Shown here piece after piece: positions 6,878-7,172 of a DNA stretch of 19,694 nt; position 1 is the stretch's first letter, and every line of letters begins with the position of its first letter. The notes below the pieces were generated by a model. The model was not told the origin of the DNA. It made no database searches and was given only the letters and a program-made list of their open reading frames with translations. Source of the DNA: Candidatus Hodarchaeaceae archaeon (GTDB lineage: Archaea; Hadarchaeota; Hadarchaeia; Hadarchaeales; Hadarchaeaceae). The stretch covers positions 1 through 19,694 of the forward strand of contig JASEGJ010000021.1 in NCBI GenBank assembly GCA_030018135.1, given 5' to 3'. Both the position numbers and the translations under genes were made by a program.

Positions 6878-6974
6878 GGGCCGGTAGATCAGCCTGGTAT
6901 GATCGTCCGCTTGGCATACGTGCCAAAAGCGCGGCTGAAGCGGGAGGTCGCGGGTTCAAATCCCGCCCGGTCCA
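6878..6974 (+). tRNA. tRNA-Ala (GGC), intron-containing
   Basis: The full cloverleaf can be drawn: acceptor GGGCCGG (6878-6884) with CCGGTCC (6967-6973), D stem GATC/GATC, anticodon stem TCCGC (6906-6910) with GCGGG (6940-6944), a five-base variable loop, and T arm GCGGG-TTCAAAT-CCCGC. The anticodon is GGC at 6913-6915 in the loop TTGGCAT. The acceptor has the G3-U70 wobble pair (6880/6971), the identity mark of tRNA-Ala. The discriminator is A at 6974, and no CCA is encoded (the next bases are CAT). A 22-nt insertion separates the anticodon loop from the 3' half of its stem and is best read as an intron. The mature form would be 75 nt. Confidence 0.93.
6918..6939 (+). other. Predicted 22-nt tRNA-Ala intron near position 38/39
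   Basis: Removing 6918-6939 leaves the loop TTGGCAT closed by TCCGC/GCGGG, as I recall from other archaeal tRNA-Ala(GGC). A bulge-helix-bulge-like fold can be drawn: TGGC (6912-6915) pairs with GCTG (6934-6937), the three-base bulge ATA (6916-6918) faces the 5' cut, CGTGC (6919-6923) pairs with GCGCG (6929-6933) around CAAAA, and an AA-containing bulge marks the 3' cut. The outer junction is imperfect. A rival 6-bp hairpin (TTGGCA/TGCCAA) and a shifted 37/38 boundary are possible, so the exact splice sites are uncertain by about a base. Confidence 0.65.
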
Positions 6975-7040
6975 CATCTTTAAAAAATATGGCAAAATAG
7001 TGAAGTGCTCCTATCCTCTTTAATGCACCTGACTAAGGGA

Positions 7041-7048
7041 TATTAAAA
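7041..7048 (+). promoter_or_regulatory. TATA-like box of tRNA-Val
   Basis: TATTAAAA is centred about 26-27 nt before the first base of the tRNA at 7071, ideal archaeal spacing. The tRNA therefore seems to have its own promoter rather than being read only from tRNA-Ala. Confidence 0.5.
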
Positions 7049-7070
7049 CGTTGAATTATCATTATTTGTT

Positions 7071-7172
7071 GGGCCCGTGGTCTAGTGGTTATGAGGGAAC
7101 AGGTTCAACCTCTCCCTAACAAACGTCACCTTGACAAGGTGAAGATCCTGGGTTCGAATCCCAGCGGGCCCA
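7071..7172 (+). tRNA. tRNA-Val (GAC) with a D-arm intron
   Basis: The acceptor stem GGGCCCG (7071-7077) pairs with CGGGCCC (7165-7171). The anticodon arm is TCACC-TTGACAA-GGTGA (7126-7142) with anticodon GAC at 7133-7135. The variable loop is AGATC, the T arm is CTGGG-TTCGAAT-CCCAG, and the discriminator is A at 7172. No CCA is encoded. The D arm is broken: GTC at 7080-7082 can only meet its partner GAC if a 29-nt insertion is removed. With it removed, the sequence is a standard 73-nt tRNA-Val. The insertion has the hallmarks of an archaeal splicing substrate (separate entry). A run of five T follows shortly after the gene. Confidence 0.93.
7094..7122 (+). other. Predicted 29-nt non-canonical intron in the D arm of tRNA-Val
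   Basis: A bulge-helix-bulge motif can be drawn directly. GTTA (7088-7091) pairs with TAAC (7117-7120) as the four-pair central helix. It is flanked by the three-base bulges TGA (7092-7094) and AAA (7121-7123), and GGGA (7095-7098) pairs with TCCC (7113-7116) as the inner helix around a small AGG/CCT hairpin. Cutting after the second base of each bulge joins TTATG to ACGTCACC, exactly restoring the D stem GTC/GAC. The position is about 23/24 in standard tRNA numbering. The outer helix is weak (about three pairs including wobbles). Confidence 0.8.

Follow-up and report, generated by a model that had tools for sequence, protein, structure and literature searches.

The tRNA-Val(GAC) gene of a hadarchaeal genome is interrupted in its D arm, which raises the question of whether the insert is an intron that is spliced out at an unusual place and, if so, by what kind of endonuclease. 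The window, i.e., the whole stretch of DNA analysed here, is one complete contig of 19,694 bases (C13) from a MAG of 1.11 Mb in 45 contigs that is 93% complete (genome label G000). A preliminary description had placed the host outside the Thermoproteota, and the host indeed belongs to the Hadarchaeota; the FtsZ encoded in the window is 89% identical to that of one archaeal MAG and 72-80% identical to those of named Hadesarchaea. Two tRNA genes (6878-7172) are flanked by a PUA-domain gene and by the genes dtdA (D-aminoacyl-tRNA deacylase) and ftsZ, and comprise the following features.

6878..6974, plus strand: neighbouring tRNA-Ala(GGC) gene with a predicted 22-nt intron at 6918-6939 (Rfam 50.8 bits; the spliced form matches the intronless orthologue of genome G022)
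7071..7172, plus strand: tRNA-Val(GAC) gene including its predicted intron (Rfam RF00005, 58.4 bits; spliced cloverleaf with anticodon GAC)
7071..7093, plus strand: 5' exon, positions 1-23 (agrees with intronless orthologues and with Val(CAC) of the same genome)
7088..7091, plus strand: 5' strand of the central helix, G19 U20 U20a A21 (GTTA), pairing with 7117-7120 (a pairing kept in all 14 same-site introns)
7092..7094, plus strand: 5' bulge TGA, predicted cut TG/A (motif geometry)
7094..7122, plus strand: predicted 29-nt intron at 23/24 in the D arm (orthologues that match otherwise lack it; six other genomes have introns of 24-31 nt at this site)
7095..7116, plus strand: inner (intron) hairpin, GGGA 7095-7098 with TCCC 7113-7116 (sequence varies, at least the first two pairs kept in 14 of 14)
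7117..7120, plus strand: 3' strand of the central helix, intron UAAC, pairing with 7088-7091
7121..7123, plus strand: 3' bulge AAA, predicted cut AA/A (motif geometry)
7123..7172, plus strand: 3' exon, positions 24-73 (Rfam match, spliced reading and orthologues)

The Rfam tRNA model matches 7071-7172 only if 31 bases are treated as an insertion in the D loop, and ARAGORN makes no call at this gene. Removal of 7094-7122 leaves a standard tRNA-Val(GAC) cloverleaf, in which the D arm (GTCTAGTGGTTATGAC) is like that of the intronless Val(CAC) gene of the same genome (GTCTAGCGGTTATGAC) and those of intronless Val(GAC) orthologues. The exon junction (...GGTTATG/ACGTC...) is the same as in the D arm of this Val(CAC) gene up to position 25, except for one loop base. 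Both the identity of the gene and the intron limits given in the preliminary description are thus borne out, the former by the Rfam match, the spliced cloverleaf and the anticodon GAC, the latter by the cloverleaf obtained after removal and by orthologues without the insert.

At the exon-intron borders, a central helix of 4 bp lies between two 3-nt bulges and is flanked by helices on both sides, as in the strict form (hBHBh') of the archaeal bulge-helix-bulge (BHB) motif. The GTTA/TAAC pairing described earlier is present, the inner helix has 4 bp, and the outer helix consists of three weak pairs (G18-C25, U16-G26, and G15-U27, i.e., one G-C and two G-U). Since an A occupies both 7094 and 7123, the sequence alone would allow the junction at 23/24 or one base further on at 24/25; the motif forms only at 23/24. 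The geometry of the motif agrees with the cuts proposed earlier after the second base of each bulge, and removal of the sequence between them restores the D stem. Shuffling of the intron dinucleotides with the exons fixed (20,000 shuffles) gave the full central helix in 0.7% and the central helix together with four inner pairs in 0.08% of the cases. For the single precursor, the unconstrained minimum-energy fold (-42.3 kcal/mol) is not the motif fold (-37.8 kcal/mol) and is better by 4.5 kcal/mol; our case therefore rests on comparison, and folding energy is not used as support. The idea of a homing element was dropped because the intron is only 29 nt long and contains no ORF.

The strongest evidence for the predicted intron is comparative, as the same motif is found in all 14 same-site introns. 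The Val(GAC) orthologue is readable in 20 Hadarchaeota genomes, often still beside dtdA and ftsZ. Seven of these genes (G000, G002, G008, G011, G014, G016, and G024) carry an intron of 24-31 nt at exactly 23/24, and 13 (G004, G005, G007, G009, G010, G013, G015, G020-G023, G025, and G027) do not; twelve of the latter are uninterrupted and that of G005 has only an intron at 37/38. Genomes G007 (empty site) and G008 (filled site), two close relatives, have flanks that are 91% and 90% identical and identical exons, the difference being exactly the insert; judged from their sequences, they are a natural before-and-after pair. Same-site introns are also present in Val(UAC) (TAC) genes of several genomes and in Val(CAC) of G024. 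At each of the 14 filled sites examined, the core and the bulges are retained, as are three pairs of the outer helix and at least the first two of the inner helix; the inner helix also swaps pairs among same-site introns and its loop varies. In G024, which represents a distant genus, the third core pair is changed on both sides (U to C in the exon, A to G in the intron), which turns GTTA/TAAC into GTCA/TGAC. Retention of the motif at all 14 sites and this compensatory change are good evidence for selection on the motif as RNA. At a probability of about 0.92, we read 7094-7122 as an ordinary archaeal BHB intron that occupies an unusual D-arm site, 23/24, and that would be spliced.

Two readings without splicing have to be weighed against this. 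The gene could be a decayed or inactive copy with an insertion, its intact Val(GAC) counterpart residing in an unassembled part of the genome, as the assembly is only 93% complete and the present gene is missed by ARAGORN. The exons are perfect, however, the motif of the same-site intron is preserved in seven genomes, with a compensatory change, and a search for a separate intact Val(GAC) gene, which the preliminary description had named as an observation that would speak against its own proposal, found no second one in the 93%-complete genome; we consider an inactive copy very improbable. Slightly less credible still is that the insert escapes splicing and enlarges the D arm of the mature tRNA. 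Although the insert is a stable hairpin, it would interrupt the D stem at G23/A24 and is missing from more than half of the relatives, and conservation sits on the splice motif whereas the loop varies.

Splicing of the predicted intron could proceed as follows. In the precursor, the intron's UAAC, close to its 3' end, would pair with D-loop bases G19-A21, forming the 4-bp core between the two 3-nt bulges. A single alpha-type EndA, probably a homotetramer, would then cut after the second base of each bulge, and the ligase RtcB would join the exon ends G23 and A24, so that the D stem would be restored before the tRNA can work. RtcB is present in G000 as an 874-aa frame (G000:C11:68229-70859; L121, L122) in which the family match is split in two, and this frame probably contains an intein.

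The type of splicing endonuclease, whose identification had been suggested as a check, was read from the genome. G000 has one EndA gene, with a product of 179 aa, N- and C-terminal EndA domains (PF02778 and PF01974; TIGR00324), and the triad Y115/H125/K156 at the catalytic columns common to Methanocaldococcus jannaschii EndA; it thus has the composition of the alpha4 type, i.e., a single gene for ~180 aa with both EndA domains and a Tyr/His/Lys triad. The adjacent gene presumably encodes tryptophanyl-tRNA synthetase, as read from its sequence. The crenarchaea-specific loop (CSL), a 9-residue stretch in A. pernix, is absent from all 21 aligned Hadarchaeota EndAs, including that of G000. When the M. 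kandleri beta sequence and a beta profile from crenarchaea were used as queries, one clear EndA gene was detected in each of 23 of the 28 Hadarchaeota genomes; both queries recovered only this alpha gene, and a beta subunit was found neither in G000 nor elsewhere among these 28 incomplete MAGs. Other matches, in three distant genomes, were weak and not convincing (E 0.03-0.08), and the crenarchaeal beta profile failed to reach its own cut-off in any control genome, which makes its negative result weak if taken alone. A gap in the 93%-complete genome could hold another Val(GAC) gene or a beta subunit of very divergent sequence, though 22 related genomes likewise have a single clear EndA gene. 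Neither component of a broad-specificity (alpha-beta)2 endonuclease, a beta subunit or a crenarchaeal specificity loop in alpha, was thus detected, and the gene content is that of an alpha4 enzyme without a separate structural subunit gene, consistently across the incomplete MAGs. Hadarchaeota EndA probably assembles as an alpha4 homotetramer.

Enzymes of the alpha4 and alpha'2 types are reported to cleave the complete bulge-helix-bulge (PMC6379350, PMC4033280). The motif at 7094-7122 is of this complete type, and the earlier claim that this intron needs a broad-specificity enzyme is not supported in that form. The intron belongs to the known noncanonical BHB kind, and what sets it apart is its setting, a simple enzyme combined with a heavy, scattered intron load. 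Noncanonical BHB introns are well known; a small number of euryarchaeal methanogens have them too (PMC3218864, PMC4033280), and they can be even more numerous in Asgard archaea (PMC11291895). Those described from Thermoproteota, Nanoarchaeum, Korarchaeum, and three thermophilic methanogens are likewise short, with a 4-bp core and 3-nt bulges, likewise occupy D-arm sites (such as 20/21, 22/23, 24/25, and 25/26), with several introns per gene, and have likely been copied from gene to gene. In contrast, the host here is a member of the Hadarchaeota with a one-gene EndA that lacks the crenarchaeal loop, and the positions that the text of PMC4090602 names do not include 23/24. No paper on tRNA introns of Hadarchaeota was found in the literature searched, which omits most subscription journals.

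Intron load and placement in the host were assessed in a census of 32 tRNA genes, of which 28 were read via Rfam and four via T-arm searches. Ten genes are intronless and 22 carry a total of 27 predicted introns. Ten of these introns sit at 37/38, one at 38/39, and the other 16 at further positions, including ten in the D arm. Genes for tRNAs Phe, His, Cys, Tyr, Trp, Asn, Gln, and others were not found in this 32-gene census of the 93%-complete genome, and may be more heavily interrupted or split. For Met(CAT) and Gly(GCC), we retained a reading with one intron over two-intron readings of about equal score; Glu(TTC), Pro(TGG), and Gly(TCC) were read by sequential intron removal and comparison with intronless orthologues of G022. 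Alignment of 18 predicted spliced tRNAs to their G022 orthologues, nearly all of which are intronless, showed agreement across the junctions with only small gaps in the D loop, a check of the junctions that does not depend on the motif score. Of the 27 introns, 26 have a complete core helix, in a search that rewarded it. Ten introns have at most one contiguous outer pair and thus represent relaxed sites; these include all three Gly genes, Asp, and Glu. Pro(TGG) (L028, G000:C11:108332-108451) has two introns only four exon bases apart, so that the second motif forms only once the first intron is removed.

If the tRNAs with these roughly ten introns without outer helix are made, the one-gene enzyme must tolerate relaxed sites, and the genome-wide occurrence of such sites argues against cutting of strict motifs only by an alpha4-type enzyme. 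We give even odds to the proposal that a single-gene, loop-less Hadarchaeota EndA removes relaxed introns, in the D arm and elsewhere, in addition to strict ones. This bears on the earlier supposition that the lineage probably has an endonuclease of broad specificity: the architectures known to confer breadth are not encoded, and the relaxed sites elsewhere in the genome lend the supposition some force. The M. jannaschii alpha4 EndA (PDB 1a79) shares with that of G000 the single gene for ~180 aa, two domains, triad, and lack of the loop; alpha4 enzymes, however, are described as serving few strict-motif introns at 37/38 (PMC4090602), in contrast to the 16 introns of G000 away from this position. 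According to a review, archaea with alpha4 or alpha2 enzymes have introns in <10% of their tRNA genes and only at 37/38 (PMC4090602), and alpha4 has been stated to cut canonical motifs only, a change of endonuclease having driven the spread of noncanonical introns (PMC4033280).

This co-evolution rule would hold if the BHB intron were spliced by an (alpha-beta)2 endonuclease with a beta subunit that has diverged beyond detection. The intron load and relaxed motifs do resemble those of Thermoproteales or Methanopyrus, and the closest solved sequence is a construct of the Methanopyrus kandleri (alpha-beta)2 EndA (PDB 5x89), which also stems from an archaeon outside the Thermoproteota that has noncanonical introns, and which lacks the specificity loop (PMC6379350). 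Yet the M. kandleri enzyme has a separate beta subunit and none was found in Hadarchaeota, where both beta searches find only one alpha gene in nearly every genome, and this alpha has both domains and no CSL. A hidden beta subunit appears unlikely to us, if clearly less so than the two readings without splicing. Should the single EndA indeed handle relaxed sites, its breadth would exist without either architecture known to give it, and introns would not have required a new endonuclease architecture in order to spread in this phylum, which runs counter to the accepted co-evolution model. Genome G022, which belongs to the same family and has the same enzyme type, has about six introns in 40 genes read (one gene, L269, being parsed uncertainly), nearly all at 37/38, so that intron load and placement changed greatly without visible change in enzyme architecture. 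The heavy-load G000 and this low-load relative allow a direct test of the rule that needs a single protein and a small number of precursor RNAs.

For work on how introns are gained and lost, closely similar loci that differ in the presence of a single intron likewise provide a new system. On the tree of the dtdA and FtsZ locus, the intron state requires five changes, at least four of which are forced by well-supported branches, which suggests that the Val(GAC) intron changed state at least four or five times among these relatives; the tree cannot tell gain from loss. The Val(GAC) intron of G016 clearly resembles the Val(TAC) intron of that genome, and the same is true of the Val(GAC) and Val(CAC) introns in G024. 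Combined with the state changes, such homologous introns in two Val isoacceptors of one genome point to copying or recombination at tRNA loci as well as loss, and copying between isoacceptor genes is likely. Intron copying between tRNA genes has been proposed for Thermoproteales, in work that PMC4033280 cites. The Val loci of G011 (L222) and G014 (L223) are 97% identical downstream of the tRNA and 77% upstream; this drop at the tRNA indicates that recombination probably broke at the Val locus. In Ca. Caldiarchaeum, close relatives likewise differ by a D-arm intron (24/25) in the same gene, tRNA-Thr(GGU), with the gain being tied to a 1.9-kb integrated element, whereas none was seen beside the Hadarchaeota Val gene (PMC3293823).

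Some further observations concern other tRNA genes of this group. The intron of the neighbouring tRNA-Ala(GGC) sits at 38/39 and has no outer helix, and its relatives L036-L038 have an apparently regular intron at 37/38 plus an extra one in the D arm. In G022, long introns of 45-54 nt are present in Met, Trp, and probably Asn (L266, L269, and L279), some with GATGATG- and CTGA-like boxes, and may host C/D box RNAs. The Val(GAC) genes of G004 (L124) and G020 (L138) have the T loop TCCGAAT instead of TTCGAAT.
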